From Pontiellaceae bacterium B12227 (GTDB lineage Bacteria; Verrucomicrobiota; Kiritimatiellia; Kiritimatiellales; Pontiellaceae): 64,000 bases of DNA. The notes beneath the pieces were generated by a model that saw nothing but the letters and a program-made list of their open reading frames with translations, had not been told where the DNA came from and made no database searches. Every line of letters begins with the position of its first letter. Position 1 is the stretch's first letter. This document shows, piece by piece, positions 4,195-64,000 of this stretch. Location of the stretch: assembly GCA_029432775.1 (NCBI GenBank), contig JAROAZ010000017.1, forward strand, positions 1-64,000, written 5' to 3'. Made by a program: the position numbers and the translations under genes.

Positions 4195-7100
4195 CTATTT
4201 CAATTCAATGGTTGCGCGGGTGAAAACGGTCGGCCCGTCCGGCGACTGTTCGGTCGTCAGAATGGTGCCGTTTCCCGGAATCTCTGTTGCTCCGGAAACC
4301 GGGCCCCATACCGTTCCGGTTAAGCTATGCAACTGCTGCAGCGTGTAAAGACGCTTCAGTCCGAAATCGGTGGAGGGGTCTGTTTTGCGGGTCGGGATGG
4401 AGACTTCAACCCGGCCGTTCTGCAGCAACTGAATACTCAGGCTGGCAAAATCGTCCCGATTGGTCGGATTGGTGCCGGCGATGAATTCGGCCAGGTTATT
4501 CTGCCCGTCGGCATCGAAGTCGTCTGTTTCGCCGGATAACGGGGCGGCAGGAGAGCCGAAATAGGTCGTTTTCCAATCATCGGAAAGTGTGGTGATGCCC
4601 GCCGCGGAGAGGGGGGACGATCCGGGGGTGCCGTTGCCGTCGGCGGCGCGCCACGAAACAGGATCGTTGGCCGGGGCGGTTGTGCTGATCCGTTCGATGG
4701 ACTGCCCGGCGTTAATGACCGGCCACGGGGCGATGGGTTTGTAGTTCACGGACTCGATTTGGATTTGCGGCACCAGGGCGGGTTCCGGATTGCCGGGATA
4801 GTTCAGCCGAATGTGCTCGCCGCCGTTGTTCAGGTTTCCATCCATTGGACCGAATACATCGATTTCCATCGGGACGGAATACTGTATGCGAAAGGCGAGG
4901 GGGTTGGTTGCGCAGACAATCAGAAACTCGCCGGAGTCCAGTGTGGTTCCGGTCGGGAATGTGAAGCTCGCCGCATCGGTGAGCGACCAGCCGTTGGTCG
5001 GGTATGCGGTGTCGTAGAGCGAAACCGGTTCCGTGCCGGCGTTGTAGAGCTCGATGTATTCCGTTTTTCCAAGGGTTGGAAAATATTTGATTTCGCTGAT
5101 CAGCACCGGCCCGCTTTTCGGTTCGCTGTTTTCCATGCCGGCGGTCTGTGCGGCCATGGGGATAAACTGGGCATCGCCTTCGCTGTCGATCCAGCGCCCC
5201 AGAGAAACATCTTTTCCGGAGGCGTTGAAATCGTGGCTGACCTGATAGCCCTGCAGAGTCCCGTCGGAGAGGGCTTTGCTCAGGATGATCTCATCGCCAA
5301 GCTCGCTGAGGGCGAATGCATCCGGTCCGCTGTTGAACTGACTTTCATGGAGAACAATAAATCCGTCGGCCGGCAGCAACGTGCTGTTGGGCAGGGCATA
5401 TTTTTTCAGGTTGTTCCAATCATCGGAAAGAAACCAGTGGCTGAGGTCGATCACGGAAGAAGTCATGTTCCTGATTTCAACCCAGTCGCCGCCGGTGTCG
5501 GAATGCGCCAGCACTTCATTAATGATGACGGATTCCGGAGCCAGATCGATGTCGGCGTTGCCCGGTGATCCGCCTGTATTCAGGCTGGGACGCCAGGACG
5601 CTTTGTAGTTCCAGGCGGCTGCGTTGGTCTGAGAAGGATCAATGAGCGTGAGCGAGAACCCTTTTCCGTCGGTGTTGTCGTACCAGTCGTCGTTATATTC
5701 GAACCGCTGAATGGTTTCACCTCGGGCATCTTCGAGTTCGACGGAATCGTTGCCGTTGGCCAGATAACCGGCGAAGGGGCCGAGGACGGTCATACCGGCG
5801 GTGTTGTAGTGCAGGGCAAACTCAACCGGATCGCTGGCGACGACAACGTAGCCGCCGGCGGGAATGGTGACGGCGGGGTTGGTGAAGACCAACCCTTCAG
5901 AGAAAAAGGTTCCGCCAATGTTCAGCGGACCGGTGCCGATGTTTTTCAGTTCGACAAACTCAAGGCGATCTTCTGTTAAGTCGGAGCCGTCGGGCAGGGC
6001 CGGGTGATACATGACCTCGGTGATGCGCAGGTAGCGCTGGGTATTGCTGAGGTCCTCCGCCCAGGTCTCGGTGTCTTTCAGCGTGCCGGCGGCATCGTAG
6101 AGCTCCAGGGTTTCGCCGCGGCTGGACAGCATGCCCTTATAGCTGCCTTGCACAAACCGCTTTTCGCCGCCTTTGGGAGAAACGGAACGGCTGCGGAAGG
6201 CGCCGGTGTCGGGGGAGACATAAAAATAGTCATTCGGCAGGACGACGCTTCCGCTTCTGAAAACATGCGTGACGGCATTGCTGAGCGACCAGCCTGAAAG
6301 ATCGACCGCGGTACTGTTGGGATTATAGAGCTCGATATATTCCTCTGCCTGATTTCCCGAAACCGGCGTGACCTCCACATGGGAAATCTGAATGTTCGGT
6401 GAGGCGGCCTGGGCGGCAGGCAGGAGCGACTGGCTGTAGAAATAGGTTCGTGTAGGATTCAGGTAGGCACTGACGGTTCGGTCTGCATTGGCCTGTTCAG
6501 GCGTAAAGTTGATGCCGTAAGCCCAGGAATTGCCCCATTTGTTGTAGTCCAGCAGCAGGTCAGCACCATGGGTTGCCAGCAGGTCGGAAATCAGGTTCTC
6601 ATAATAGCGTTCCTCCAACGGGGTGGATGACGGCTGAAGGAGTTCATCCAGAACCGAGCGCAGCCGGCGGAGATAGAGCGCTTTCAGATCCGGTGAGTCC
6701 CATACGGCTTTCTGGAGTAAGCCCCACGACGGATGCCGCAGATTATTTGCAGGATCTGACCCGTCATGCAGAATTTTAAAGGTTTTATTCCATGTCATTC
6801 CGAACACGAGGTCTTTGTCCCAGGGAAAGACCGACCAGTCGCCGGTTCCGTCGGTGTCGCGATAATAATAATGATTCTTTGCCGCGGTATCGCCATCCCG
6901 CATGAGTGCGGTTAAACAAAGATAGTTGAGCACATTCGCGACATCCATATTATCAAAAACGAAAGACTCTTTTTCCGGGGTCTGGATGCCGTGAACCAGC
7001 GCGTGGACATCGCTGGTGTCGGTGTCTTCTTTTCGTGTTTTCTGCGCTACCCGATGCGTTTTGTAAGCCGTGTCCGGTTCGTCCGTTCCCCAGCCGATGA

Positions 7101-8952
7101 CCTTGTAGAGTTTGCCGTTTTCATCGTAGTCATGTCGGAGGAGGTAGTCCTCGTCCAGTTGTTCTTCAAAATTCTGGACACCGAAGAACGCATTGTTGCG
7201 GCGCAGATGCACGAGGAAGGATTTACAGCCGGGGGCGCCGACCTTTTCATAGGAATTCCAGGCCAGCATGCGGCGCAGGTAGGTTTTGTCGGAGTAGGTG
7301 GTGTTGAGGTTCATCTCCTCCACTTTGCGCTCCGAGGCGTCATACTCAAAGTGGTGGCCGCGGTTGAAGTCAAACTTGTGACTTTTCTTAATGATGGATG
7401 TATTTTCGGTGGATCCGCCCCGGGTACGGGTCATGATGTTATCGTAGAGTTTTCCGTCATAGAAAATGGAGGAGCGGCTTTCGTTTCCGCTGTCCATGAT
7501 GTTGGTGGTCGCAACAAACCAGTGATAGACCGGCATGGAGCTGGTTACAGCAATCTGTGCCATGGTACCGAAAAACTCGGGCGAATTCAGCGGGTCGTAA
7601 AACAGGGGCCAGCGGGAGGTATTGCCCGCTCCGTCTTCGGCGTTGAAACGGTAGCGGATCATTTCGCCGGCGGCATAGGCGGTGGATGGAATGGTGGCGG
7701 TGTAGAGGTCATCACCGGAGTGGGTCATGGGAACAGTGGTTTCTCCGTTGAACATGATTTCGTAGGTCATGGTGATCGCGGCGACGCCATCGGCTTCATC
7801 GATCACCTTGACCGAAACATTCAGATCTTCGGTTTCCAATGGCTGGAAGGGCAGGTGCTGTTCTTTTGAAAACTGCGGACCGATGTTTTCTGTGCCTCCG
7901 ATATTCCCGGCGCCCGGGGTCGGTGTGGAGAAATAGAGCGGGTTCTGCCCGCTGATCAGTTCTGAACTGAACAGGGTGAGTTCCGGTAATAAAAGAAAGT
8001 CGCTGCTGTTGCTGCGGTCGTTCACTCCGTGAATGGCCAGTATGTTGGTGCCCGAGACAAAGGCACTGCCGCCGGACAGTTGATAGGTTTCGAAATCGGA
8101 AGACTCAATCCATTCAAGGGCATCTTCGTCCCATGCGTATGTTCCTGAAATATTCGCCGATGCAATGGGTTCGCCGTTGATGTATGCCCGAAACCCGTCG
8201 TCATACCAGAGGCGCAGGGTCGCCTGGTTGACCTGAGTCCCTTCCGGGACGACGAATGGAATGCGGGTGTAGATGGTTGGGTGCACATTATACATGATGG
8301 ACTCAACATCCATATTGAACAGTCCTTCGTAGCCGGAGGTGCGTTCATAGCCGATGCCGGTTTGTCCGGCGATCCATCCGGTGTCATCGAATCCCGGTTG
8401 CGTCCAGTTCAGCTCCAGCGAATCGTCGGTCGGAACAAACACGGAGCAGGGGGCGCCGGCCGTTAAAACCTGATTGGAAGAAAGGGTTACAGGGACGCCG
8501 AAGGAGACATCATCCACCTGAGCGGGATATTCCGGGGAATAATCAGAGACCACCACGCCGTCCGGGTTGACGAGGGCCAGGTATTCACCGCCGCCAGACA
8601 GTTTGAAATTGGTATGCAGCTCTTCATCGGGATCTTTCCGGTTTTTGTTGGATGCCCGGATCAGGCGGAAATCGCCCGGGCCGAGCACAACCGGGGATAT
8701 TTCCCACTTCGTCAGATCATCCGCTTTGTCCGTCAAATGCCAACCGCCGAGGTTTACGGCCTCGCTGCCCGCGTTGAACAGCTCAATCCAGTCGCTGCGA
8801 TCGCCGTCTTCGTCCTCTAAACCGTTGCTGTTGACGGCCAGAAATTCGCTGATGATGACGTCGGGCTCCGCCTGTACAGGGGCTGCCGAGGCGGCAATGC
8901 CGAGCAGCAGGGCGGCGAAAGCCGTATCGAATCTATTCATCTTATTCTGCAT
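4195..8952 (-). CDS. Multi-lamin-tail CotH-kinase family secreted protein
   Basis: 1585 aa, with a signal peptide (about residues 1-28, ending A-A-P-V-Q-A-E). A first lamin-tail domain (about 30-150; V-I-I-S-E-F-L-A-V-N...W-I-E-L-F-N-A-G...L-G-G-W-H-L-T-D) and a beta-rich stretch are followed by a CotH domain (about 470-850), with R-T-R-G-G-S-T, F-G-V-Q-N-F-E-E-Q and F-P-W-D-K-D-L-V-F-G, the last corresponding to the metal-binding W-D-x-D-x-x-F-G region. Four more lamin-tail domains follow (about 890, 1030, 1170, 1300). The end is a D-F-D-A-D-G-Q-N-N-L-A-E-F-I-A-G-T tail. CotH in Bacillus phosphorylates spore-coat proteins; the substrate here is unknown. It is the first gene of the VTC/DUF4956/HlyD/TolC operon. 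AGG nine bases before the ATG supports the start; an ATG at 8940 is an alternative. Confidence 0.85.
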   Translation of the reverse strand: MQNKMNRFDTAFAALLLGIAASAAPVQAEPDVIISEFLAVNSNGLEDEDGDRSDWIELFNAGSEAVNLGGWHLTDKADDLTKWEISPVVLGPGDFRLIRASNKNRKDPDEELHTNFKLSGGGEYLALVNPDGVVVSDYSPEYPAQVDDVSFGVPVTLSSNQVLTAGAPCSVFVPTDDSLELNWTQPGFDDTGWIAGQTGIGYERTSGYEGLFNMDVESIMYNVHPTIYTRIPFVVPEGTQVNQATLRLWYDDGFRAYINGEPIASANISGTYAWDEDALEWIESSDFETYQLSGGSAFVSGTNILAIHGVNDRSNSSDFLLLPELTLFSSELISGQNPLYFSTPTPGAGNIGGTENIGPQFSKEQHLPFQPLETEDLNVSVKVIDEADGVAAITMTYEIMFNGETTVPMTHSGDDLYTATIPSTAYAAGEMIRYRFNAEDGAGNTSRWPLFYDPLNSPEFFGTMAQIAVTSSMPVYHWFVATTNIMDSGNESRSSIFYDGKLYDNIMTRTRGGSTENTSIIKKSHKFDFNRGHHFEYDASERKVEEMNLNTTYSDKTYLRRMLAWNSYEKVGAPGCKSFLVHLRRNNAFFGVQNFEEQLDEDYLLRHDYDENGKLYKVIGWGTDEPDTAYKTHRVAQKTRKEDTDTSDVHALVHGIQTPEKESFVFDNMDVANVLNYLCLTALMRDGDTAAKNHYYYRDTDGTGDWSVFPWDKDLVFGMTWNKTFKILHDGSDPANNLRHPSWGLLQKAVWDSPDLKALYLRRLRSVLDELLQPSSTPLEERYYENLISDLLATHGADLLLDYNKWGNSWAYGINFTPEQANADRTVSAYLNPTRTYFYSQSLLPAAQAASPNIQISHVEVTPVSGNQAEEYIELYNPNSTAVDLSGWSLSNAVTHVFRSGSVVLPNDYFYVSPDTGAFRSRSVSPKGGEKRFVQGSYKGMLSSRGETLELYDAAGTLKDTETWAEDLSNTQRYLRITEVMYHPALPDGSDLTEDRLEFVELKNIGTGPLNIGGTFFSEGLVFTNPAVTIPAGGYVVVASDPVEFALHYNTAGMTVLGPFAGYLANGNDSVELEDARGETIQRFEYNDDWYDNTDGKGFSLTLIDPSQTNAAAWNYKASWRPSLNTGGSPGNADIDLAPESVIINEVLAHSDTGGDWVEIRNMTSSVIDLSHWFLSDDWNNLKKYALPNSTLLPADGFIVLHESQFNSGPDAFALSELGDEIILSKALSDGTLQGYQVSHDFNASGKDVSLGRWIDSEGDAQFIPMAAQTAGMENSEPKSGPVLISEIKYFPTLGKTEYIELYNAGTEPVSLYDTAYPTNGWSLTDAASFTFPTGTTLDSGEFLIVCATNPLAFRIQYSVPMEIDVFGPMDGNLNNGGEHIRLNYPGNPEPALVPQIQIESVNYKPIAPWPVINAGQSIERISTTAPANDPVSWRAADGNGTPGSSPLSAAGITTLSDDWKTTYFGSPAAPLSGETDDFDADGQNNLAEFIAGTNPTNRDDFASLSIQLLQNGRVEVSIPTRKTDPSTDFGLKRLYTLQQLHSLTGTVWGPVSGATEIPGNGTILTTEQSPDGPTVFTRATIELK
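5067..5081. repeat. 15-bp palindrome site
   Basis: TTCCAAGGGTTGGAA with perfect 6-bp arms, inside the CotH-family gene. Two one-mismatch copies (TTCCAATCATCGGAA) lie at 4571-4585 and 5414-5428 in the same gene, both where D-D-W is encoded. Confidence 0.85.
7834..7848. repeat. 15-bp palindrome site
   Basis: TTCCAATGGCTGGAA inside the CotH-family gene, read on the minus strand as F-Q-P-L-E. It has the same 15 bases as the site at 18140 in the cysteine desulfurase gene. Confidence 0.85.
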
Positions 8953-10242: not shown

Positions 10243-10260
10243 AAAACAGGTAAGAACTCT

Positions 10261-14588: not shown

Positions 14589-14589
14589 G

Positions 14590-15525: not shown

Positions 15526-15541
15526 GTGGAGTTTCCAACCC

Positions 15542-43464: not shown

Positions 43465-43479
43465 TTCCAATGGTTGGAA
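43465..43479. repeat. 15-bp palindrome site, paired
   Basis: TTCCAATGGTTGGAA, 4 bp after the phosphatase stop. The next site starts 32 bp later. Confidence 0.9.
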
Positions 43480-48820: not shown

Positions 48821-48842
48821 GAGAACTTCCAGGGTTGGAACG

Positions 48843-48932: not shown

Positions 48933-49886
48933 ATGCGGACTGTAGCCAAAGTGAATGCCGTATTGTTGGCGGGAGACCGGAGAGCCAGTATTGCTCTCCA
49001 TAATGAGAATAAAGCATTTCTCGAACTGAGAAACAAACCGCTCTTCATTCATGTGCTCGAAGCGTTGCTCGGTGCCGAGATGGTCGGGGATGTGGTGGTG
49101 GTCGGCCCGAAAGATCGGATTGTCCAGACCTTGGAAAAGCACGGCATCACGGAAGGTGTCGTTGTGGTCGAGCAGCGTGAAAACATGATCGAGAATTTTA
49201 AGGTCGGTTATGTCTGTTCTCTCGGGCTGGAGGAAACGGTGCCGTTCTGGAGTCTTAAAAATTCCGGGCATGATGAAACCCCGGTGCTGGTTGCCCCCTG
49301 CGACATTCCCATGATGCTGCCTGAAGAGGTCGACGAATTTCTCATGCGTTCTAATATGCATGAATATGACTATTCCATCGGCGTCACTTCAGAGGATGTG
49401 CTGAGGCAATACCACCCCGCGCAAAATAAGCCCGGTATCCGGATGATCTATTTCCACGTAAAGGAAGATCTCATGCGGCATAACAACCTGCATGTTGCCA
49501 AGCCGCTGACATTTGACCATCTCGACTACATTGAAAAGATGTACGAATGGCGCTATCAGACTCGTTTAGCCAATATACTGCGGATGATCTTCTCCATGCT
49601 GACGAATGGTTGGCGGCTCATGAAGAGCCTGCGTGTGATCATTCTGATGCAGCTTTCGCTTTACTACGATCGGCACGGGCATCCTAAGCTTGCTGATCAG
49701 ATGCGTTCTCTCGTCGGTTTCAACCGATTGTCAGAGGGAATCGGTAATGCCCTTGGGGCCCGTGTAGAGATTGTCTACACGCACTTTGGCGGAGCCGCTC
49801 TGGATGCGGATAACGAGAAGGATCTGGCGGTCATAGATCAGCGCTATGATGAATGGATGAAATTCCAACGCGGTATGCACACTTAG
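48933..49886 (+). CDS. MobA-like nucleotidyltransferase family protein
   Basis: 317 aa. The N-terminal 200 residues resemble a GT-A-type nucleotidyltransferase. V-N-A-V-L-L-A-G-D-R-R with a K-A-F-L-E-L-R-N-K-P-L-F-I-H-V-L-E-A-L-L segment corresponds to the L-A-G-G...K...L-x-x-x-P-L-x-x-x-x-L pattern, and V-A-P-C-D-I-P-M-M holds the metal Asp. The usual G-G-G loop is altered to G-D-R-R. The C-terminal third is helical (R-M-I-F-S-M-L-T-N-G-W-R-L-M-K) and is not recognised. Substrate unknown; molybdenum cofactor genes are absent nearby. The last 4 bp overlap the convergent NfeD-type gene. An imperfect palindrome copy lies at 49132. Confidence 0.8.
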   Translation: MRTVAKVNAVLLAGDRRASIALHNENKAFLELRNKPLFIHVLEALLGAEMVGDVVVVGPKDRIVQTLEKHGITEGVVVVEQRENMIENFKVGYVCSLGLEETVPFWSLKNSGHDETPVLVAPCDIPMMLPEEVDEFLMRSNMHEYDYSIGVTSEDVLRQYHPAQNKPGIRMIYFHVKEDLMRHNNLHVAKPLTFDHLDYIEKMYEWRYQTRLANILRMIFSMLTNGWRLMKSLRVIILMQLSLYYDRHGHPKLADQMRSLVGFNRLSEGIGNALGARVEIVYTHFGGAALDADNEKDLAVIDQRYDEWMKFQRGMHT

Positions 49887-51370: not shown

Positions 51371-53575
51371 TTATTCGGCGTGGACGCGGAAGAAGGTTGC
51401 GCCGTTGGTCGCCTGCATTTCCCATTCGACGGCCTCGCCGGCATCGTTCCAGACATTGGAAGCCAGGTTGGTGGTCTGTTTCATCTGCAGGCTCAGGTGC
51501 AGCGTGCCGCCTTCGGCCTGAACCATCAGCGCGCCCATGTTGAGGTCCTGAATCGAGTCGGCGGTATAGAGTCCGTATGCGGCGGGATCGGCGATCACAC
51601 TGGCGGCGCCTGCGTAAAGGGCTGCTCCCTCGTTGTAGGTGGGCGAGAAACCCATTGCCACTTCGTCGCCGTCTTGGCGCCCGTCGCCATCGGTGTCGTC
51701 GTTGTCGAGGTCGGAGCCCAGCGCGACTTCTTCAGCGTCGGTGAGGCCATCGTCATCATAGTCGGCGGCTCCCGCAAATTCATAGGCGCCCATATCCACA
51801 TAAGCCCCCGGGTTTGCATCGCCGTCGAGCGGGCGGGGCAGGCCGTGGAAATCAGTCAGGATGGGGGGGGACTGCATGACGCCGGCATCGATGCAGGGCG
51901 AGTCGGGGCGGAGATGGAGCAGCGCGTCGGCGAAAAGCGGTGCGTTGGTCGTGCCGCCGGAGGTCAGATCGGGGCTGCAGCATGCGATGGTCGTGGGGGA
52001 GCTGTACAAGTCGTCTCCATGGCTTTGGGCGATGTTTCCGACAATGATGGTGTTGAAAAGCGAGCCAGCGTAGCAACCCCCGCCGTTGGAGCTCGCAAGA
52101 TTCCCTTTTACGGTACAGTGATATAGGGTGCAATCGTAGCTTCCACCGCCGAGCGTTGCAGAGTTTCCGGTGATGATACAGTTTTGCAGGGTGTTGGTTG
52201 ATGCATACTCGGCGCATCCGCCGCCGTTGTTCGCAGCGTTTCCTGACACGATGCATTGGCGGAGCGCACTGTTATAGCTTCCTCCGCCAGATTCCGCCGT
52301 GTTGTCCATGAGTGTACAGCCGGTCAGTGTGCCTTCGCGTGATCCCCCTCCTGTAGATGAGGCCGTATTATCCGACAGCATGCTGTTGTGAAGGGTTCCT
52401 GCATAGGTTCCGCCGCCATCGACGGCGGTGTTGGATTCGATGATGCAATTGGTCAGTGCGCTTGAATGACAACCGCCGCCATAGATGGAGGCGGTATTTC
52501 CTGAAATTAAACAATCCACTAACGTGGATGTGTGGCATCCTCCGCCATAAGCGGCGGTGTTGTTTTTGAGTTCGCACAGGGTCAAGGTGCTTTTGTAGAC
52601 TCCTGCGCCCTTTGATGCAGTATTTAGGGTGAGGTAGCAGTTGGTTAGAATGGCCCAATAGCTTCCGCCTCCATAGTTGGTTGCGGCATTGGCCGTAAGG
52701 GAGCAATCTGTTAAAGTTCCATAGTAGGTTCCTCCGCCAGACGCCGTGGCAACATTGGCGGTGTAGGTGCAGTTAGAAAGCGTTCCAAATGCACTGCCCG
52801 CTCCAAAGCTTGCGGAATTATTAGAAAAGGAGCAACCCGTTAAATCTCCTTCGTAGCTTCCTCCTCCAAAGTTGGTTGCAAAATTGTCCACAAAGGTGCA
52901 ATTCGTTAAAATTCCGTGTGAGCTTCCGCCTGCGCTTAATGCAACATTGCTGGTGAAGGTGCAATTTGTAAAGCTACCTAAGAAGCTTCCTCCGCCATAA
53001 CTTGCTGCCCTGTTTCCTGAAAATGTACAATCCGTGAAAATGCCTTTATATGCCCCGCCACCAAAATTGATCGCTATTGAATCTTTGATGTCGCAGTTTT
53101 TAATTTTGGGTAAATTTGAGCCCGCACAAATTGCACCGCCGGATTGGTCATATATGGCATCGCCCGTTGCGTCGTTGGCGTATCCCTTTTGCAGGGTAAA
53201 TCCGTCCAACTCTCCCTTCGTCATATACACGCAGCGCACCAGCACATCATTCCGGCCTAATGAGACATTGTTTCCGGCAATAATCGTATTTTCCGTAAGG
53301 CCCCAGGATTGAACACGGATATCTTTGGTGATCACCACCCGATTGAACGAGCTGTAGCCGGGCGTTACGGTGTGGCCCAAATTATAGATGCCTTCATACA
53401 CCATCACGGTGTCGCCATCTGATGCCGCATCGACGGCCGTCTGGATCCTGTTTGCTGCGGTGCCCCAGCTGGAGTAGGGGGGCGTGTCGGAACCGGTCGG
53501 CGACACATAAAAGGTCGCGGCCATCGTGCTGGAGGCCAGTAAGAACAAGGATAGGCCGAGGGCGGTTGTTTTCAT
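51371..53575 (-). CDS. Pmp-repeat beta-helix secreted protein (734 aa)
   Basis: The signal peptide is M-K-T-T-A-L-G-L-S-L-F-L-L-A-S-S-T-M-A-A. T-F-Y-V-S-P-T-G-S-D then begins a right-handed beta-helix. From about residue 145 to 520 there are some 15-16 short repeats of the form N-C-x-(F/L)-x-x-N-x-A-x-x-x-G-G-G-(S/C), the F-x-x-N plus G-G-(A/G) pattern of Chlamydia polymorphic membrane proteins. After P-C-I-D-A-G and D-M-G-A-Y-E-F come Asp-rich Ca-binding-like repeats (D-D-D-G-L-T-D-A-E-E-V-A-L-G-S-D...D-G-D-G-R-Q-D-G-D-E) and a C-terminal domain. No autotransporter barrel is seen. The role (adhesin, lyase or shell protein) is unknown. It lies 21 bp downstream of the 1951-aa homologue, so the two are probably one operon. 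Confidence 0.88.
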   Translation of the reverse strand: MKTTALGLSLFLLASSTMAATFYVSPTGSDTPPYSSWGTAANRIQTAVDAASDGDTVMVYEGIYNLGHTVTPGYSSFNRVVITKDIRVQSWGLTENTIIAGNNVSLGRNDVLVRCVYMTKGELDGFTLQKGYANDATGDAIYDQSGGAICAGSNLPKIKNCDIKDSIAINFGGGAYKGIFTDCTFSGNRAASYGGGSFLGSFTNCTFTSNVALSAGGSSHGILTNCTFVDNFATNFGGGSYEGDLTGCSFSNNSASFGAGSAFGTLSNCTYTANVATASGGGTYYGTLTDCSLTANAATNYGGGSYWAILTNCYLTLNTASKGAGVYKSTLTLCELKNNTAAYGGGCHTSTLVDCLISGNTASIYGGGCHSSALTNCIIESNTAVDGGGTYAGTLHNSMLSDNTASSTGGGSREGTLTGCTLMDNTAESGGGSYNSALRQCIVSGNAANNGGGCAEYASTNTLQNCIITGNSATLGGGSYDCTLYHCTVKGNLASSNGGGCYAGSLFNTIIVGNIAQSHGDDLYSSPTTIACCSPDLTSGGTTNAPLFADALLHLRPDSPCIDAGVMQSPPILTDFHGLPRPLDGDANPGAYVDMGAYEFAGAADYDDDGLTDAEEVALGSDLDNDDTDGDGRQDGDEVAMGFSPTYNEGAALYAGAASVIADPAAYGLYTADSIQDLNMGALMVQAEGGTLHLSLQMKQTTNLASNVWNDAGEAVEWEMQATNGATFFRVHAE
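51447..51461. repeat. 15-bp palindrome site in the Pmp-like gene 3' end
   Basis: TTCCAGACATTGGAA, in the stretch coding the non-repetitive C-terminal domain (minus strand S-N-V-W-N-D). Confidence 0.8.
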
Positions 53576-53596: not shown

Positions 53597-56500
53597 CTAG
53601 TCGAGTCGGACGTTAATTTTATAGTAGGAGTTCGGGAGGTCGTTTCCGAAGCCGATCACATCGTGGGGATAAGGCAGGGTGTAGCCTTTGTCCTGAAAAC
53701 CATCCACGAGGTTGGTGCTCCAGCTGACGCCATACGTGCGGCCTGCGACGGAGGGCGACCACTCCAGGGTGATCCGGGTAACGCCGGGCGTTTCGGTATC
53801 GATTCTCGTCGTCTGTGTAACTTTGAGGTACGAGAGCGGATCGAGCGGGTCGGTTCCGGCGATGAATTCCTGAATGTTGCTGTGCGGGTCGGTATCTGGA
53901 TTTTCTGCGGCGACGGCGTTGGTGACGCCGCCGAAGTTTTCGAGTTCCCAGCTGTCATCCATTCCATCGCTGTCGGAATCGCCGTTGAGCCACATTTCGA
54001 AGGCACCCATATCGACGTTGCCGTATCGAATGCGAGGCAGGTTGTTATAATCCCCTTCGGTGGAAACGTAGGTGTCATTGCCTGCGTTGATACAGGGCGA
54101 CGTGTTTGCGAGATAATAGTCGCTTCCCCGGACGAAAATATTCGGCGAGTGGCTGATAAACTGCGGTGCGTTTGTGATGTTGAGATTATAAGCATTGGCG
54201 GTGAGTCCCGGGCTGCAGCAATATTTTGCACTGGCTCCCCGCAAATTGATGTCCGCTGTCCAGCAATAGTTGTAGTAGATGATGGAGTTGTAGACGCTGC
54301 CGGCGTTAACCCCGCCGCCCTGGTCGGCTCCATTTTCCACGACCGTGCAGTTCCGCAGGGTTGCGCTGCTGCTGCCTCCTCCGTATTCCACCGCAAAGTT
54401 GTCGCGAATGATGCTGTTGCGGGCGGTGCCTTTATACATGCCGCCCCCTTGGCTGACGGAGGCCCGGTTGTGGGCGACTTCGCAGCGATCAATGTCGCAA
54501 GATGACAGGCCGCCGCCGGACGGTGCTGTATTGCTGCTGATGGTGGAGTGGGTCAGGATGCTGTTGTATGCCGCACCGCCCTCTGCCGAGGCCGTATTGT
54601 TCGAAAGAGTACAATCGGTCGCGGTGCTGCCATTGAGTCCTCCGCCATAATCGGCCGTGTTGCCAACGATCGTGGAATCGATCAGACTGCTTTCATGAGA
54701 TGCTCCTCCGCGGGTGGCGGCGTTGCCGGTGAGCGTGCAGTATTCCAGCGTGCCGCGATAGGCTCCAGCTCCATTGTAAGCCGCGCAGTTTTCGAAGGTC
54801 GAATAGGTGATTCGGGGCGTGTTGTTTTCGCAGTAGATGCCGCCTCCTTGATTGTCGCCCGAACCTTGGGTTGAGGCCGCGCCGTTTCGAATGACCAGGC
54901 CTTCGAGTACGCATTCGCTATAACCCAGGTTGAAACAGCGGGTGCTGCCGCCGCCGTCAACAATGGTAGGTGTTGAAGCCGCGCGACCCCGCAGCAGGAT
55001 CGGTTTGTCGACTAGAATCGGTTCCGTGACGGTATAGGTTCCTGCACCGATCTGAACGCGACCTTTATAGATGTTTTGCGCGTCCACGCCCGCTTGAATG
55101 GTCTGCTTGGCGCTGGCCCAGCTTGTGCCGTCGTTGTCGTCATTGCCGGACGTTTTTACAAAGATGTCCGAGTCTGCTGTGGAAACCACTTCGACAATCT
55201 GTGTGGTCGAGAAGCCCTGTGGATAGGTGTCGTTGAAGCCGGTCAGGATGACCTCAACGTTTTGACTGATGGATCCCGGCCAGGTGTGGGTAAAGGTTCC
55301 TGCGCTGTTGGTCATCATGGTTCCGTCGCCGAGGTCGATCACGGTTTTCGATACTTGCCCTTCAACGATTACGGAATAGGTGCCTTCGGTATAGACCAGA
55401 ATCGGCGACGGGCCGTACAACGCCATTTCGATGGGGCCGGTGAGCGTTGCGCCCACTTCATCGCAACCCATGGCGGGCGGCGTATTCCATGCTTCGCCAT
55501 CGCGGTCGGTGCCGGAGGCATAGGCGGGATCGCCCGCGCCGATGCAGGGCGATGCGGCGGCAATGTGCGAGGAGGAGATCAGCATCGGATTGTTGGTGAT
55601 GCAGCCGTTCTCGCCATGCGTCGCGTCGGGCGAGCAGGTGTGGTGGGGGGACGAACTGAGCATGTCGCTTCCGTCGCCCGCGGCGGTGTTGAACCAGACA
55701 ATACAGTTGTTGGCGTTGCCGGAATACATGCCGCCGCCGTCCGTGCCGGCCTCGTTGGCCGTGATGGTGCAGTGGTTCGCGGTGGTGTAGTACAATCCGC
55801 CGCCAGCCGTGATCGCTTTGTTTCCGCTGAAGACACAGCTGTTTGCGATGCCCTGATGCATGCCGCCCGCATGATTCATCGACTGGTTGCCGAGGAAGAC
55901 ACAGCGGTTCGCGGTTCCCTGGTACATGCCGCCCGCGCTGTTGAGCCCTGTGTTTCCTATGAACCGGCAATCGTTCGCGACGGCTTGGTACATGCCTCCG
56001 CCCTGGCTGGCGGTGTTATTTTCAAACGTGCAGCTGTTGGCCGTTCCGGAGTACATGCCGCCGCCATAGCCGCCCGAGGTGTTGTCCCGGAATTCGCAGG
56101 CTGTCGCAATGCCGCCATACATGCCGCCGCCCTCATCGCGGCAGCTGTTTTCGATAAATGTGCAGCCTTGTGCATGGCCGAGATAGAGTCCGCCGCCTTC
56201 ACCGCTCAGACACCAGTTATTGGTAAAGACGCAGTTGATGGCCGTCCCGTAGGCCATGGCGCCGCCTCGGGTTGCTGCATTGCTTTCAAATATGCAGTTT
56301 TCGATTTGCGGGGAGAGGGAATAGCCGCAGAGCACGCCGCCGCCGGAATACCCCTTGGTGCTTTCTTGATTATTGCCATTGCGGAAGGTGATTCCGTAAA
56401 CCGTGGTGTGGTTGTCGGCAATGTCCAGGCAGCCGACTCCGGTGTATTGGTTGGATGAGCCTCCATCAATAATTGTGTATTCAGCCCCGTTGAGGCCGAT

Positions 56501-59452
56501 CAGCTGGATCTCGTTTTCAATCAGAAGGGTTTCGGTCAGCTCGTAGACGCCGTTGGAGATGATCACCTTTCCGCCAATGAACTCCTGCGCATCGATGGCG
56601 GCTTGGATGGTTTGCTTGGAGGCGGCCCAGCTTCGTCCATCCGCTGAATCATTCCCGTTGGTGGACACGTAGAGGGTGTTAAAGTCGGTCGCGCGAACTG
56701 TAATGGAGTTGGTGACCGCGTTCAGAATTTGGCGGTGCTCGTCGTAGGCCGAAACAACCATGTTGTAGGTGCCGGGCGTTGTCCATGTATGGGAGATGGG
56801 GCGAATGGCCGTGTTGATGGCGGTCTGCCCATTGCCGAATTCAACATAGTCGCTGAAGAACGCCCCTTGAATATCAACGGTAAAAAAGGCCTGGAAGCCT
56901 GCGGGGATATCGGACGGGCCGTCGACGGTGATCGAAACCTCGGAGGCGACATAGGGAAGCATCGGTTCGTCGCAGCCCATGGCCGGATTGGTGCGCCAGT
57001 GTTCCCCGTCGATGTCGAGGGTGTCGCGCGGAATGGTTCCCGACCCGGCACACGGTGAACTCAATTCAATGTGAGAAGCAGAAACGAGTTGCGGATTATT
57101 CGTGATGTTGCCGTCCACACCGTGTTCAAGGTCGGGCGAGCAGGAGTCGGTAGCGGTGCTTCCGTATATATTATCGTTGCCATTGAGGGCGGTGTTGAAC
57201 CAGACGATGCAGTGATCCAACGTTCCGCCATAGCTTCCGCCGCCGGTGCCTACCGCATGGTTGTCGGTGTAGGTGCAGTGCGTAGCGTTTACATTGTACG
57301 TTCCGCCGCCTTGTTTGAATGTTTTATTGCCTCGGAAAACGCAATTTTCGGCGGTTCCTGACCACATGCCGCCGCCTGGGGAGGTATCGCCGCGGTAGTT
57401 GGGAATGCCTTCGTTGAACAGAAACTGGCAGTCGAATACGTGGGAATCTCGTGCTCCACCCCCGTAGGTTCCCTTGTTTTCTTTGAAGATGCAGCGGGCG
57501 GCGTAACCGTCCTGAATGCCGCCCGCGCCGTTGGCGCTGGTGTTATGCTCAAAGAGGCTGTCCACCGCATAGCCTGCCTGCATTCCCGCCGGGCCGTTGC
57601 TGCCTGTGTTCAGCCTAAAGGTGCAGTTGGTGGCGGTTCCGCGCCACATGGCGCCACCGCCATTGACGGAGTTGTTGGCGGTCAGGGTGCAGCTATCGAC
57701 GACGGGGTTGAGCCCCGAACAATAAACAGCGCCGCCGCCCGTGGCGAGCGGGCTATAGCCTCGGCCATCGCGGAGGGTCAGGCCTTTCAGTGTGCAGTGG
57801 CTGTTGTACAGCATGAAACAGCGGGTGTGGTTGCCGTCGGCGGTCACGGTGGTGTTTTCCGTGCCGTTGAGTCCTTCGATGCGAATCTCTTTTTCAACGC
57901 AAATTTCGGAGGTGATGGCATAGGTTCCGTTGGAGACCAAAACCAGTCCGCCCGCCACGTCCTGCGCATCGACCGCTTCTTGAATGGTGTGCATGGCGGT
58001 TTCCCAGCTTTCGCCATCAAAGGGAGATTGGCCGTCTTCCGAAACATAAACAGTGGTCATGTTGTCGGTGTGGGAATAGACCACATTGGAAACGGAGACG
58101 CCGCCGGGATAGTCATCGTTGTATCCCGTGAGCACCACTTGAAAGTTTCCGTGCCCAAAGGTGTGCGAGATTTCAGTGCTGGTCGGATTGGTGACGGCCG
58201 TGCCGTCGCCAAAGTCGAGAACGGTCTGGGTGACCGGGCCTTCGACATAGGCCTCGAAATGAATCTCTTGATTTGCTGCTGCGAGTTCCGGGGTCGAAAG
58301 CGTCAGCGTCATCTCGCCGCCAACGGTGGTTTTAATTTCATCGCATCCGATGGACGGTGTGGCATTCCATGCTTCGCCGTCGATGTCGGTGAGGTGGGTC
58401 AGATAGCTCGCGCTTCCTGCCCCGATGCATGGGGAGGTGGCGGCAATATGCGAAAATGAAACCAGCTGCGGATTATTGGTGATGTTGTGATTTCCGTCAT
58501 CGGTTTGGGCTTCGGGAAAACAGGAATAGCGGGCTTTAGTCTGACTTTCAATATTGTTTTCCTGATGCACCGCCCGGTTGTTCCAAAGGATGGAATTGTT
58601 GGCGGTGCCGCCATACATGCCGCCGCCCTGCGATGCCATATTGTCGAAAAAGGTGCAGTTGTTGGCGGTGCCTTTATACATGCCGCCGCCTTGGGCTCCC
58701 CCTTGGTTGGCCGTCACGACGCATTGGTTCAGCGTCGATTGGTAGGCGCCCCCGCCATGGGTGGTTGCGATATTGTTGATGAAGGTGCAGGCTCTGGCCG
58801 TCCCGCCTTTTAGGCCAGCTCCATAGGTGGCCGTGTTGTTTCTGAAAGTACAGCGATAGGCGGATCCATCCTGCATGCCTCCCCCGTATGTCGCCGAGTT
58901 GTCAACGAACAGGCAATATTCCGCTTCGGTGGATCGGGCGCCACCGCCATAGGTGCCTGCGTTGTTCGTGAAGATGCAGCCGTTGGCCGATCCTTTATAC
59001 ATGCCATTGCCTTGGTTGCCGGAAATGATGCAGTTCCATACGAACGGGGTGTTGTCATCGCAATAGATCCCGGTGCTGGCACCATCTTTAATCGTCAGGC
59101 CAACGACCTGGCAGGCGTTGGTGCCTAAATCCAATACATTGTTCAGGTTTTCCCCGTTGATGATGCTGTGATCGGCATATTCCAAGGAGAGGAATGCGCC
59201 GCGCAGAACGATGTTGTTAGTCACCTCCAACGTTTCTGAAGGGGTATAGATTCCACGATAGATGATGACCTCATCGCCATCCTCCGTCACATCAATGGCC
59301 TGCTGAATGGTGCGCGCCGCCGTCGTGGCATTGGTGTAAGGCGCGGTCGGTCTTTGACAGGTCTGATCCACATAAACCGTCTTGGCTTGAGCGAAACCTG
59401 CAGTACAACAGATGAGTGCGATGATCCAATGCTTGGTGTTTAAAATATTCAT
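53597..59452 (-). CDS. Giant Pmp-repeat/PKD surface protein (1951 aa)
   Basis: The signal peptide is M-N-I-L-N-T-K-H-W-I-I-A-L-I-C-C-T-A-G-F-A-Q-A. Four tandem modules of about 460-500 residues start near residues 23, 466, 925 and 1427. Each opens (V/L)-Y-V-(S/D) or I-F-V-K, then G-x-S-W-x-x-A-x-x-T-I-Q-x-A-(V/I)-D-A-Q (weaker in the first), runs through 7-10 Pmp-type repeats (C-x-F-x-x-N-x-A-x-x-x-G-G-G-M), and the first three end in D-x-D-G-E-x-W-x-x-x-P-x-(I/M)-G-C-D-E plus a PKD-like domain (D-F-G-D-G-T, H-T-(F/W)). The last ends in a D-S-D-S-D-G-M-D-D-S-W tail with S-N-I-Q-E-F-I-A-G-T-D-P. The signal peptide and repeats indicate an extracellular fibre or adhesin; no membrane anchor or barrel is seen. 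The repeats make it prone to recombination. Confidence 0.88.
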   Translation of the reverse strand: MNILNTKHWIIALICCTAGFAQAKTVYVDQTCQRPTAPYTNATTAARTIQQAIDVTEDGDEVIIYRGIYTPSETLEVTNNIVLRGAFLSLEYADHSIINGENLNNVLDLGTNACQVVGLTIKDGASTGIYCDDNTPFVWNCIISGNQGNGMYKGSANGCIFTNNAGTYGGGARSTEAEYCLFVDNSATYGGGMQDGSAYRCTFRNNTATYGAGLKGGTARACTFINNIATTHGGGAYQSTLNQCVVTANQGGAQGGGMYKGTANNCTFFDNMASQGGGMYGGTANNSILWNNRAVHQENNIESQTKARYSCFPEAQTDDGNHNITNNPQLVSFSHIAATSPCIGAGSASYLTHLTDIDGEAWNATPSIGCDEIKTTVGGEMTLTLSTPELAAANQEIHFEAYVEGPVTQTVLDFGDGTAVTNPTSTEISHTFGHGNFQVVLTGYNDDYPGGVSVSNVVYSHTDNMTTVYVSEDGQSPFDGESWETAMHTIQEAVDAQDVAGGLVLVSNGTYAITSEICVEKEIRIEGLNGTENTTVTADGNHTRCFMLYNSHCTLKGLTLRDGRGYSPLATGGGAVYCSGLNPVVDSCTLTANNSVNGGGAMWRGTATNCTFRLNTGSNGPAGMQAGYAVDSLFEHNTSANGAGGIQDGYAARCIFKENKGTYGGGARDSHVFDCQFLFNEGIPNYRGDTSPGGGMWSGTAENCVFRGNKTFKQGGGTYNVNATHCTYTDNHAVGTGGGSYGGTLDHCIVWFNTALNGNDNIYGSTATDSCSPDLEHGVDGNITNNPQLVSASHIELSSPCAGSGTIPRDTLDIDGEHWRTNPAMGCDEPMLPYVASEVSITVDGPSDIPAGFQAFFTVDIQGAFFSDYVEFGNGQTAINTAIRPISHTWTTPGTYNMVVSAYDEHRQILNAVTNSITVRATDFNTLYVSTNGNDSADGRSWAASKQTIQAAIDAQEFIGGKVIISNGVYELTETLLIENEIQLIGLNGAEYTIIDGGSSNQYTGVGCLDIADNHTTVYGITFRNGNNQESTKGYSGGGVLCGYSLSPQIENCIFESNAATRGGAMAYGTAINCVFTNNWCLSGEGGGLYLGHAQGCTFIENSCRDEGGGMYGGIATACEFRDNTSGGYGGGMYSGTANSCTFENNTASQGGGMYQAVANDCRFIGNTGLNSAGGMYQGTANRCVFLGNQSMNHAGGMHQGIANSCVFSGNKAITAGGGLYYTTANHCTITANEAGTDGGGMYSGNANNCIVWFNTAAGDGSDMLSSSPHHTCSPDATHGENGCITNNPMLISSSHIAAASPCIGAGDPAYASGTDRDGEAWNTPPAMGCDEVGATLTGPIEMALYGPSPILVYTEGTYSVIVEGQVSKTVIDLGDGTMMTNSAGTFTHTWPGSISQNVEVILTGFNDTYPQGFSTTQIVEVVSTADSDIFVKTSGNDDNDGTSWASAKQTIQAGVDAQNIYKGRVQIGAGTYTVTEPILVDKPILLRGRAASTPTIVDGGGSTRCFNLGYSECVLEGLVIRNGAASTQGSGDNQGGGIYCENNTPRITYSTFENCAAYNGAGAYRGTLEYCTLTGNAATRGGASHESSLIDSTIVGNTADYGGGLNGSTATDCTLSNNTASAEGGAAYNSILTHSTISSNTAPSGGGLSSCDIDRCEVAHNRASVSQGGGMYKGTARNSIIRDNFAVEYGGGSSSATLRNCTVVENGADQGGGVNAGSVYNSIIYYNYCWTADINLRGASAKYCCSPGLTANAYNLNITNAPQFISHSPNIFVRGSDYYLANTSPCINAGNDTYVSTEGDYNNLPRIRYGNVDMGAFEMWLNGDSDSDGMDDSWELENFGGVTNAVAAENPDTDPHSNIQEFIAGTDPLDPLSYLKVTQTTRIDTETPGVTRITLEWSPSVAGRTYGVSWSTNLVDGFQDKGYTLPYPHDVIGFGNDLPNSYYKINVRLD
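58581..58595. repeat. 15-bp palindrome-like site in the giant Pmp-like gene
   Basis: TTCCAAAGGATGGAA (5-bp arms), where I-L-W-N-N is encoded. Other modules have related codons here without the palindrome, so this one may be chance. Confidence 0.5.
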
Positions 59453-59620: not shown

Positions 59621-59635
59621 TTCCAATGTCTGGAA
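59621..59635. repeat. 15-bp palindrome site upstream of the SDR gene
   Basis: TTCCAATGTCTGGAA, ending 9 bp before the SDR start. The right arm plus AAAGGT overlaps the ribosome-binding region. Confidence 0.9.
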
Positions 59636-59644
59636 AAGGTACTT

Positions 59645-60367: not shown

Positions 60368-60444
60368 CGGCTTCGCCGCAATTTAGGATTTTGGATTGTC
60401 GATCGTTGATTTTCGGGTCCGCGACGGCGTTTAGGAGAAAAGGC

Positions 60445-60792: not shown

Positions 60793-60846
60793 TCACTGGA
60801 CTTTTTGAATCTGAAGAAATTTCCTCACGTGGCTATTAATATATAG

Positions 60847-60928
60847 TTCACACTTTTAAATGTGTGAAATGGTGCATATGCCTGTGTTTATGTGGGATTG
60901 AACTATTTCACACATTTAAAAGTGTGAA
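60847..60928. repeat. 82-bp double palindrome (MITE-like or regulatory)
   Basis: Two 22-bp elements, each itself a palindrome with TTCACAC and GTGTGAA arms around an AT-rich centre (60847-60868 and 60907-60928), are exact reverse complements of each other. With two more matching bases the inverted repeat is 24 bp at 60847-60870 and 60905-60928. The 34-bp middle contains CATATG and no gene. The whole lies between folB and accA. Confidence 0.8.
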
Positions 60929-60997
60929 ATTAGCGGGGTAATCGTGTGTTTTGGGGCAGGAGGAAGATTGCCTTCTTATGCAGAAATGGAAGTCAGG

Positions 60998-61966: not shown

Positions 61967-61989
61967 GCAGTGCTCCTCTTAAAAAAAAA

Positions 61990-62943
61990 TTATTCGCTGA
62001 TTATAACGGTTGTTTTACGCGGGACCAGATCAAAGAGTTCTTCAACATCTTCGTTCAGCATGCGGATGCAACCGGCACTGGACTGCTGCCCGATACTATC
62101 GCGTTCCCAGGTTCCGTGAATTCCGAAACCGGTGATTTCGGGGTGCTCTTCTGATACAATTTTCATCCACCGCGTACCCAGCACGTTTTCAGGGTCGCCA
62201 TATTCGATCTGCTTGCCGTCGGTGAATCGGGTCCACGGCGGCTCCGTAATTTTATCCACAATTTTAAATTCAACGGCCGGGGTTTTTCCGAACTTTCCGG
62301 TTCCCACCGAATAGCGTTTAAACAGCTGATCCCCAGCCATCAGGTCGAGCGTGTTGCGCGACTTAGAAACACGAATGCTGAAATCACCATTATAAACCAC
62401 CACGCCGGCGCCGGCCCGGATGGTGTCGGTCTGCATACCGTTCATCATTTTAATCAGTGCAACGGTGGTGTTGTATTTTTTGGCAATCTTCTGCAGGTAA
62501 TCGCCCGACTGAATCGAGTAACGCTCTTTTCCGGGCATAGGAATCGGCGACTTCAGGATTTTCATGTTCACATCGCCCAGCAACTTGATGGCTTCCGGAT
62601 CGGGGGAGGCGGCCACAATCTGATCCAACTGCCTTTTAGCTTCCGCCAATTGGCCGGCATCGAGTGCGGAACGCGCATCGGAGATGGCGGATTGAACTTC
62701 CGGCGAAGCCTGAACGGCAATTATCGGTGCCGGCGCGAGGCCCAGCGGTTCCGGTTCAAAGCTGGCTGCAGGAGCAGCCGGTTCCGGAACATTCACAGCT
62801 TCTTCGTCTGATTTTTTGCCTTTGGACCAGACCAGATACGCACCCACAAGGACGATCTGTATAATAATGATGATAACGAAAACCCGTTTCCAACCCCCGC
62901 CGCCGCGGTTGTTGTAGGAGCCTGCATAAATTGGTTTTGCCAT
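61990..62943 (-). CDS. L,D-transpeptidase with LysM domain
   Basis: 317 aa. An N-terminal membrane anchor (about residues 18-37, V-F-V-I-I-I-I-I-Q-I-V-L-V-G-A-Y-L-V-W) and a Pro/Ala-rich linker lead to a LysM domain (about 143-190; Y-S-I-Q-S-G-D-Y-L-Q-K-I-A-K-K-Y-N-T). The YkuD domain has F-G-I-H-G-T and S-S-A-G-C-I-R-M, whose cysteine is the nucleophile of the H-G-T...S-x-G-C-I-R-M signature. It cross-links peptidoglycan or attaches proteins to it in the periplasm. It lies 23 bp upstream of accA on the same strand. The ribosome site is weak. Confidence 0.93.
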   Translation of the reverse strand: MAKPIYAGSYNNRGGGGWKRVFVIIIIIQIVLVGAYLVWSKGKKSDEEAVNVPEPAAPAASFEPEPLGLAPAPIIAVQASPEVQSAISDARSALDAGQLAEAKRQLDQIVAASPDPEAIKLLGDVNMKILKSPIPMPGKERYSIQSGDYLQKIAKKYNTTVALIKMMNGMQTDTIRAGAGVVVYNGDFSIRVSKSRNTLDLMAGDQLFKRYSVGTGKFGKTPAVEFKIVDKITEPPWTRFTDGKQIEYGDPENVLGTRWMKIVSEEHPEITGFGIHGTWERDSIGQQSSAGCIRMLNEDVEELFDLVPRKTTVIISE

Positions 62944-63069
62944 AGTCGAGAAACCTTCGTTCGGTTAAAGTTTCGCATTTATGCATAATCCGCTTCCGCC
63001 CTGCAATAATAATACGATTACAGATGGAAACACGGGCCCGATACAGGTACTTTTCCAAACCTTGAAACT

Positions 63070-64000
63070 ATGAAAATATTGCTTATAACACCCCCACTAC
63101 TGCAACCGAACACGCCCTATGCCGCCACACCGCTGCTTACCGCCTGGCTTAAATCGCTTGGGCATGATGCGGTTCAGAGTGATTTGTCGCTGAAACTGCT
63201 ACTTAAACTTTTTTCAAAGGAAGGCGTGGCAACGCTCAGTCGCGAACTGGGTATTCCAATGGATGCTGCGGAGCCCTATCTGGAAACAGTGGAAGAGGTG
63301 CTCGGTTTCCTTCAGAACAGAAATCCGGGTGCGGTGGGGAAAATCCTGCAGCGCGGCTGGTTGCCGGAAGGCGAGCATCTGGCCCGGGCCTATGAGCTGG
63401 AAGAACAGTTGCAATGGAACTTCCGGGGATTGGAAGCGGAGGACCGTGCCCGCTATCTGGCCGGGCTCTATCTCGATGACATTGCCGATGTCGCCTCGGA
63501 GCTTGATCCACATTTTGGATTTTCACGCTATGCTGAAAGCCTGACCGCAAGTCTTCCGGACTTTGGAATTATTCGCGATGAGCTGGAGCACGGCGATTCC
63601 ATCTTTTTCCAATGGTTGGAACAACTGGCCGATGATGAAATGCGGAAGCATCGGCCCGATATGGTGGTGTTAACCGTGCCGTTTCCGGGGTGTCTGCTCG
63701 GTGCACTGATTATTGCCCGCCGGATGCGGGCAACGCATCCATTAACGCACATTACCATGGGCGGCGGCTATCCGAATACAGAGCTGCGGGAGCTGAAGGA
63801 CCCGGCCATCTTTAATTATGTCGACAGCATCACGCTCGATAGCGGCTTTCTCCCGCTTCAGCGTCTCGCTGAAGGCGGTAAGCTGGTCCGCACCTTTGTC
63901 TGCGAAAATGATGCTGTGGTTTTCCAAACCTCGGAAGCCGAAGAGGTGGCCCACGCCGATCTGCCGGCGCCAGATTTCCAGGGATTGGAACTCGATCATT
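63070..64000 (+). CDS. B12-binding-domain radical SAM-like protein, 5' part only
   Basis: The frame opens at the ATG at 63070 (M-K-I-L-L-I-T-P-P-L-L-Q-P-N-T-P-Y-A-A) and stays open to the window end (310 codons). The opening L-L-I-T-P-P-L...P-Y-A-A-T-P-L-L-T-A-W-L-K-S-L-G-H and later P-D-M-V-V-L-T-V-P-F-P-G-C-L-L-G-A-L...H-I-T-M-G-G-G-Y-P-N-T-E-L match the Rossmann-like cobalamin-binding half of B12/radical-SAM proteins. The C-x-x-x-C-x-x-C motif would lie beyond the edge. A helical insertion of about 130 residues (about 45-180) splits the domain. Several palindrome sites lie inside. A damaged copy (63053-63067) sits 2 bp before the start. Confidence 0.75.
   Translation, partial: MKILLITPPLLQPNTPYAATPLLTAWLKSLGHDAVQSDLSLKLLLKLFSKEGVATLSRELGIPMDAAEPYLETVEEVLGFLQNRNPGAVGKILQRGWLPEGEHLARAYELEEQLQWNFRGLEAEDRARYLAGLYLDDIADVASELDPHFGFSRYAESLTASLPDFGIIRDELEHGDSIFFQWLEQLADDEMRKHRPDMVVLTVPFPGCLLGALIIARRMRATHPLTHITMGGGYPNTELRELKDPAIFNYVDSITLDSGFLPLQRLAEGGKLVRTFVCENDAVVFQTSEAEEVAHADLPAPDFQGLELDH
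63607..63621. repeat. 15-bp palindrome site inside the last gene
   Basis: TTCCAATGGTTGGAA, in frame as F-Q-W-L-E. A variant with one changed arm base (TTCCGGGGATTGGAA) lies upstream at 63421. Confidence 0.85.
63976..63990. repeat. 15-bp palindrome site inside the last gene
   Basis: TTCCAGGGATTGGAA, in frame as F-Q-G-L-E. A one-mismatch copy (TTCCAAACCTCGGAA) lies at 63922-63936. Confidence 0.85.

Follow-up and report, generated by a model that had tools for sequence, protein, structure and literature searches.

What are 27 perfect copies of one interrupted palindrome, TTCCA-N5-TGGAA, doing in 64 kb of DNA from a Pontiellaceae bacterium (B12227, class Kiritimatiellia)? We analyzed this stretch (contig JAROAZ010000017.1, positions 1 to 64,000; hereafter "the window") to follow up a sequence-only reading that had counted the copies by eye. 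All 27 are present, the first at 5067 and the last at 63976-63990. We propose, with a probability of about 60%, that the 15-mer, in the refined form TTCCA-RNSNY-TGGAA, is the putative site of a dimeric, self-associating DNA-binding protein of Kiritimatiellia with an architectural role.

Order-4 Markov simulations of the window (30 runs) produced 0-2 copies, with a mean of 0.37. When up to one arm mismatch was allowed, the window contained 52 matches vs 2.67 expected from dinucleotide shuffles, and none of 100 shuffles reached 52. Among the 13 near-copies that the sequence-only reading listed, 11 are correctly placed one-mismatch 15-mers and the one at 48827 has an N4 spacer, making it a 14-mer; that given as 49132 was misplaced and lies at 49122. 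It had described AA/TT as extending the arms of most copies; T/A flanks both sides in 9 of 27 and at least one side in 21. The genome of the window (G000; 6.29 Mb, 206 contigs) has 2297 copies, compared with 6 of the reversed pattern AAGGT-N5-ACCTT. This is 365 per Mb, or about one per 2.7 kb. The enrichment stands against the Markov background and extends to the remaining contigs and to related genomes.

Spacing and spacer statistics were collected from 951 kb of G000 (about 15%), which contains 351 N5 copies. N5 alone is enriched among spacings N0-20, with 1-6 copies at each other spacing; at longer spacings we counted 11 copies for N21, 10 for N22 and 2-5 for N23-30. The first spacer base is A/G together with C/T as the last in 315 of 351 copies, and the center is G/C in 329, giving the consensus TTCCA-RNSNY-TGGAA, with ATCAT/ATGAT and ACCAT/ATGGT as the commonest spacers. 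All 27 copies in the window have A/G as the first spacer base and G/C at the center. Thus spacer sequences do vary, as the sequence-only reading had noted, but they are not unconserved, given that bases 1, 3 and 5 are constrained. The outer spacer bases (x1 and x5) are independent of each other (A..C observed 65 times vs 66.4 expected, and G..C 25 vs 22.5). This opposes a hairpin role, because a stem would favor pairing bases and two protein half-sites would not. One-mismatch arm variants at N5 are also enriched, foremost TTCCG (90 vs 8.7) and ATCCA (66 vs 5.8). At the second arm position, A (2 vs 1.8) and G (2 vs 3.8) do not exceed background, and T to C is modestly enriched (15 vs 2.8). With second-position variants near background, the core CCAN5TGG by itself is hardly enriched.

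The mechanism we envisage has one sequence-specific dimeric protein recognizing TTCCA-RNSNY-TGGAA. The TTCCA halves are one helical turn apart, and the dimer would contact consecutive major grooves from the same side of the DNA. Bound dimers may associate, in several families at steps of 31/32 bp (three turns) and sometimes 21/22 bp (two turns). Rows of two to six sites, mostly intergenic and on one helix face, match the requirements of a complex that wraps DNA or forms filaments. In the window's genus the protein would bind mostly single sites over the chromosome, in genes and gaps, kept by purifying selection. Its role may be architectural, such as folding the chromosome or marking domains or the ends of genes, and transcription could be affected secondarily.

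Selection was assessed by aligning stretches of two relatives from the same genus to part of G000 (G001, 65 kb at 77.6% identity; G009, 31 kb at 77.9%). In G001, all ten arm positions are identical at 24 of 33 sites, comprising 14 of the 22 genic and 10 of the 11 gap sites; a stricter count that rejects gapped alignments gives 13 of 22 and 9 of 11. By comparison, 9.4% (genes) and 17.4% (gaps) of all windows in the same alignments are identical at these positions, and 10.5% (both) of windows 30-60 bp away. Arm positions that are fourfold degenerate are identical at 31 of 41 in G001 vs 45.1% elsewhere, and at 12 of 16 in G009 vs 45.5%. The arms are identical in G009 at 4 of 8 genic and 2 of 3 gap sites. 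Spacers change beside constant arms; for example, the spacer of site 14590 differs among all three genomes. Sites missing in the relatives, such as 16044, align without gaps, indicating that sites change by substitution and not by insertion. The arms are held by purifying selection, even inside genes. The retention of sites in both genes and gaps leads us to infer an architectural role.

Copies were said to lie in genes, in gaps and in different frames, and this is the case in the 951 kb of G000. We used our own gene calls (hexamer score), so that gene/gap splits are approximate. In detail, 246 of the 351 copies are within predicted genes (70%; random places 89%), occupy all three frames (104/85/57) and are spread along genes with no clear trend. 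Every gap type is enriched, with 2.4-fold for tandem, 2.95-fold for divergent and 4.5-fold for convergent gaps. The pattern is alike in G001 (121 sites; 3.8, 2.6 and 5.0 fold), and the strongest enrichment in G000, G001 and G112 is that of convergent gaps. A classical operator role by itself does not fit the coding copies; the sequence-only reading had argued that an operator or terminator role alone is insufficient. MatP/matS, Noc and Fis sites are likewise short palindromes for a dimer, dispersed on the chromosome irrespective of genes; here there are thousands of exact copies. Nine large G000 contigs, sampled without being placed on a map, each have 0.215-0.525 sites per kb, with no sign of a matS-like regional restriction. 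The lowest value is that of G000:C11 (L001-L010), whose density is roughly half the median for these contigs and for which acquired DNA or an effect of chromosome position is possible.

We counted the site in 387 genomes of the phylum, 131 of them (by count of rows) in Kiritimatiellia. At least 50 copies were found in 44 of the 131 class genomes and in none of the 256 from other classes, where the maximum was at most 30. The site is thus confined to one class, and inside it the occurrence is patchy. Across the 28 genomes of the window's genus, counts range from 5 to 2297. The spacer rule is followed by only 8 of 20 copies in the site-poor congener G004, 9 of 20 in G018 and 12 of 24 in G014, from which we infer that these genomes have almost lost the system. 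A scan for paired sites in named genomes returned at least 117 stretches, with titles including Kiritimatiellae, Kiritimatiellia, Kiritimatiellales, Pontiellaceae, Lentisphaerae, Verrucomicrobia, Verrucomicrobiota and uncultured (metagenome-assembled genomes). Three stretches titled Spartobacteria and one titled Firmicutes, among the matches listed, were taken as mislabels. Twelve IMG/VR viral-contig stretches (L351-L362) also bear the paired site; they may come from phages or proviruses that infect these bacteria, or the contigs may include host sequence. In G108 (family f44, from another class, 2.4 Mb), AAGGT-N5-ACCTT has 55 copies and TTCCA-N5-TGGAA none, perhaps representing another iterated spaced palindrome.

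Rows of copies were found in families f8, f9, f12, f17, f19, f20, f28 and f29. To quantify phasing we took pieces of five genomes by place, two of which (G048:C1 and G201:C1) were already known to show arrays. The 48 nearest neighbors within 200 bp are mostly separated by 31 bp (21 cases) or 32 bp (23 cases); distances of 30, 22, 62 and 136 bp occur once each. The phasing strength is R 0.943 at a period of 10.5 bp, and 31/32 bp corresponds to three helical turns. All-pair distances in the at least 117 named loci have peaks at 21/22, 52/53 and 83/84 bp besides multiples of 31.5 bp; the 31/32 peak in this set is imposed by the search design. The rows are largely in gaps in G048 (14 of 14 clusters, 27 of 28 sites) and G201 (11 of 12 sites), and 25 of 147 named arrays are inside predicted genes. 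In G112, 39 of 59 sites are in gaps, 18 in genes and 2 near contig ends. The window has one clear phased pair, at 43465/43497, 32 bp apart, with both members kept in G001. Tandem duplication as the origin of the phasing is unsupported in G048 (n = 7) and G057 (n = 11), where the similarity of adjoining linkers does not exceed that of randomly chosen ones; it is possible for G201 and part of the named arrays. Genes beside arrays included no recurrent regulator and no strongly recurring gene family. Phased arrays do occur at the pheS 5′ end in three different genomes (L091:1384-2433, L099 and L217/L225), which are 69-80% identical there. In G057, arrays with linkers in the same order occur at several places, often at contig ends (L017-L020, L210, L218), as a dispersed repeat built of the palindrome.

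The phased arrays, the spacer rule and the confinement to one class go beyond the sequence-only reading, which had favored the binding site of a dimeric protein over simple copying. That preference is indirectly supported by the strict N5 spacing, the independent outer bases, arms kept beside changing spacers, change by substitution and helical phasing in relatives. In some relatives copying plays a part, as in G057 and where adjoining linkers are alike.

We searched for the protein among named families, in line with the suggestion to look for a conserved helix-turn-helix (HTH) protein. A Fis-like HTH_8 family with an LGTTRRILRYR-like segment is present in G000 as a stand-alone protein of 70 residues (L271, G000:C140, about 229.8 kb). 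It was detected in 32 of 80 genomes at 86 bits or more (next match 55), using a profile built from members of f1 and f2, so that distant orthologues could score low. Its carriers in genus g1 have more sites per Mb (p 0.003). The family is absent from the site-rich G034, G040, G048, G112 and G134 and present in G055, which has 3 sites, and we rejected it as the binder. Read by eye in the related loci (L272-L275, L277-L280), the same Fis-like HTH ends an apparent response regulator in family f2 and in genus g2, and in G288 and G050 it ends an open frame that contains GAFTGA, a motif of sigma-54 activators.

Lrp was the best fit to the array geometry. Lrp sites are 15 bp in length, and Lrp/AsnC sites resemble ours as palindromic dimer sites in clusters two or three turns apart on one face, compared with 44 of 48 neighbors at 31/32 bp here. 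Clustered sites and DNA wrapping, described for Lrp-family regulators in the part of the source we used (PMC2995911), provide a precedent for such an assembly. Unlike the geometry, the Lrp protein does not track the sites. PF01037 is present in 75 of 80 genomes, site-rich and site-poor alike (two genes in 14 of 80), and had no match in site-bearing G003 and G007 (89% and 88% complete). The recognition region varies among site-rich genomes, in a comparison that lacked G046, G073 and G101 and in which G045, G057 and G120 were represented by other proteins. A perfect site is within 500 bp upstream of the Lrp gene in 1 of the 26 upstream regions read out of 31 (G139, with an off-rule center; G045, G046, G073, G101 and G120 were left out). 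Lrp/AsnC was therefore rejected as the binder. LysR was rejected on 0 matches in site-bearing G029, G034, G040, G048, G049, G052, G057, G101, G112, G191, G201 and G275 (55 genomes searched). The IclR box is TGGAAATNATTTCCA, which has the same two pentamers and N5 as here with the halves in opposite order. The IclR-type HTH had some match in 50 of 55 genomes and none in G134 (467 sites, 100% complete), and was also rejected.

Several results weigh against the dimeric architectural protein we favor. None of the five protein families tested (Lrp, Fis-like, LysR, IclR and Y1 transposase) tracks the sites. G000 shows weak phasing (R 0.31, n = 37, p about 0.03) and G001 shows none (R 0.11, n = 23, p 0.76), so dimer association may not matter in the window's genus. 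G004 and G018 are nearly without sites, and the function is thus dispensable. In the pooled named arrays, adjoining linkers resemble each other more than random linkers do (0.469, n = 52, vs 0.286), and the same is seen in G201 (0.633, n = 3, vs 0.407), indicating that some arrays grew by duplication. The conservation results come from 44 site comparisons, a number in which some sites count twice, once for each relative. G009 has weak gap enrichment (54 sites; tandem 2.0, divergent 0.6 and convergent 1.2 fold), and the class with the highest enrichment in G048 is that of divergent gaps (10 of 28 sites vs 0.3 expected), as for a regulator. Moreover, the architectural role is deduced from location only.

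The G048 result would suit operators of one global transcription factor at many promoters, the strongest of the alternatives, although we consider it improbable. A palindromic dimer site, the 2.4-4.5 fold enrichment of G000 gaps and the arrays at pheS are all consistent with operators. However, 70% of G000 copies are inside genes and spread along them, convergent gaps are the top class in three genomes, and no gene family is strongly recurrent beside arrays.

Slightly less probable still is a process like that proposed for the highly iterated palindrome HIP1 of cyanobacteria, in which a methyltransferase and biased mismatch repair create and keep the sites. The sequence-only reading had likened the palindrome to HIP1, uptake sites and nucleoid-organizing sites. 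The likeness to HIP1 holds for abundance far above Markov expectation and for coding location, as the copies are mostly genic in G000 and in all three frames. Like HIP1 and the alternate HIPs, this is a short, lineage-bound palindrome with very many copies; it is patchy and is gained or lost through substitutions in place. Loss and replacement between related genomes is also described for HIPs, according to the portion of PMC4390886 consulted. It does not extend to density, with 365 per Mb here against the 1000-2000 per Mb given there for HIPs. Nor does it extend to form, since a HIP is a contiguous short palindrome and ours is an interrupted 15-mer with a constrained center and phased arrays in relatives. 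Phased arrays and the RNSNY rule are not expected of a modification target, and the core CCAN5TGG, as shown above, is hardly enriched by itself.

Repetitive extragenic palindromic (REP) sequences, bacterial interspersed mosaic elements (BIMEs) and REP doublets forming hairpins (REPINs), with their REP-associated tyrosine transposases (RAYTs), are intergenic palindromes that are sometimes clustered. Spread of the site by Y1 (RAYT) transposases in this manner is very unlikely. Mostly intergenic palindromes in rows occur in several families, some G057 arrays are copies given their linkers in the same order, and Y1_Tnp genes were found in 45 of the 56 class genomes searched. However, the arms are constant with variable centers and flanks, G000 has no conserved flank or loop, and sites arise in place inside genes; change in place and independent halves largely refute this origin for the window's genus. 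The extragenic location typical of REPs is not that of G000, and is approached more nearly in G048, G112 and the named arrays. Y1 transposases also fail to track the sites, with 0 matches in site-bearing G057, G101 and G191 and 7-21 in site-poor G054, G069, G076 and G299.

A DNA-uptake or self-recognition signal has similarly little probability. Thousands of dispersed copies in genes and gaps of one class only would suit such a signal, but phasing and the spacer rule indicate an assembling dimer. To our knowledge, no uptake sequence described so far takes the form of spaced palindromes in helical register. Least probable of all are RNA hairpins or terminators at gene ends, for although the site is a palindrome, with some copies just 3′ of stop codons and convergent gaps enriched in G000, each arm has only two G-C pairs, x1/x5 have no preferential pairing, most G000 copies are inside genes, and helical phasing points to duplex DNA.

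A full-text literature search for spellings of the motif returned no match. In a word search of PMC5217627, on genome-wide spaced motifs, we found no TTCCA and none of three phylum names, and TGGAA once, in a CRISPR repeat. The main text of PMC12306157, a REP survey, has none of the three phylum names, and PMC10880615 (on Pontiella agarivorans) does not mention a palindrome, motif or nucleoid. An abundant dispersed binding site is a known kind of element, and this combination of traits was not met in the parts of the literature we looked at.

Table 1. Perfect TTCCA-N5-TGGAA sites in the window, with no strand assigned; CDS, coding sequence. "Kept" refers to the relatives G001 and G009.
Site	Position	Context and conservation
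TTCCA-AGGGT-TGGAA	5067..5081	perfect pattern match
TTCCA-ATGGC-TGGAA	7834..7848	perfect pattern match
TTCCA-AGGAC-TGGAA	9932..9946	CDS; kept in G009, one mismatch in G001
TTCCA-ACCTT-TGGAA	10228..10242	called intergenic; kept in G001
TTCCA-ATCAT-TGGAA	14590..14604	valS/lipA gap; kept with other spacers in G001 and G009
TTCCA-ATCAT-TGGAA	16044..16058	CDS; gap-free absence in G001 and G009 (change in place)
TTCCA-AACCT-TGGAA	17526..17540	called intergenic; kept in G001, different spacer
TTCCA-ATGGC-TGGAA	18140..18154	CDS; kept in neither G001 nor G009
TTCCA-ATGAA-TGGAA	26710..26724	perfect pattern match
TTCCA-ATCAT-TGGAA	29392..29406	hisS/aspS gap
TTCCA-ATGTC-TGGAA	32005..32019	perfect pattern match
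TTCCA-GACGC-TGGAA	33711..33725	CDS; not kept in G001
TTCCA-GGCAT-TGGAA	34521..34535	CDS; not kept in G001
TTCCA-ATGTC-TGGAA	35793..35807	CDS; not kept in G001
TTCCA-ACGAT-TGGAA	40277..40291	kept in G001, different spacer
TTCCA-ACCAT-TGGAA	40606..40620	CDS; kept in G001
TTCCA-ATGGT-TGGAA	43465..43479	first of 32-bp pair (3 turns); kept in G001
TTCCA-ATGAG-TGGAA	43497..43511	second of 32-bp pair; kept in G001
TTCCA-ACGAT-TGGAA	46950..46964	CDS; kept in G001
TTCCA-AACAT-TGGAA	47053..47067	CDS; kept in G001
TTCCA-GACCC-TGGAA	51309..51323	called intergenic; kept in G001
TTCCA-GACAT-TGGAA	51447..51461	perfect pattern match
TTCCA-AAGGA-TGGAA	58581..58595	perfect pattern match
TTCCA-ATGTC-TGGAA	59621..59635	perfect pattern match
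TTCCA-ACCCC-TGGAA	60237..60251	perfect pattern match
TTCCA-ATGGT-TGGAA	63607..63621	perfect pattern match
TTCCA-GGGAT-TGGAA	63976..63990	perfect pattern match

When examining the other contents of the window we noted two large proteins (734 and 1951 amino acids, at 51371-53575 and 53597-59452) with repeated units of the type NNTAxxGGGxY, which we take to be probably beta-helix surface proteins. The only Pfam match for the two was a weak TSP3, in the first. At 3268-8952, a VTC-domain protein adjoins a protein of 1585 amino acids that combines a CotH kinase domain with five lamin-tail stretches.

If the reading of the palindrome as the site of a dimeric architectural protein is true, a class with few cultured members would have a dispersed architectural DNA code, defined to the single base and present in thousands of copies. 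Selection on this code is measurable inside coding sequence, and relatives show an exact helical register. A larger picture, which we hold only tentatively and at somewhat less than even odds, is that Kiritimatiellia have a sequence-addressed chromatin, in which a dedicated self-assembling dimer acts on a 15-bp code, mostly intergenic arrays with three-turn steps serve in several families as boundary or wrapping elements between genes, the code has spread in the window's genus to thousands of selected, mostly single sites of which more than half are genic, and the system was repeatedly lost within genera. Site-rich and nearly site-free species in one genus would then be a natural experiment on the function of the site, and coding sequence would be constrained by a DNA-binding code that is visible at fourfold-degenerate positions.

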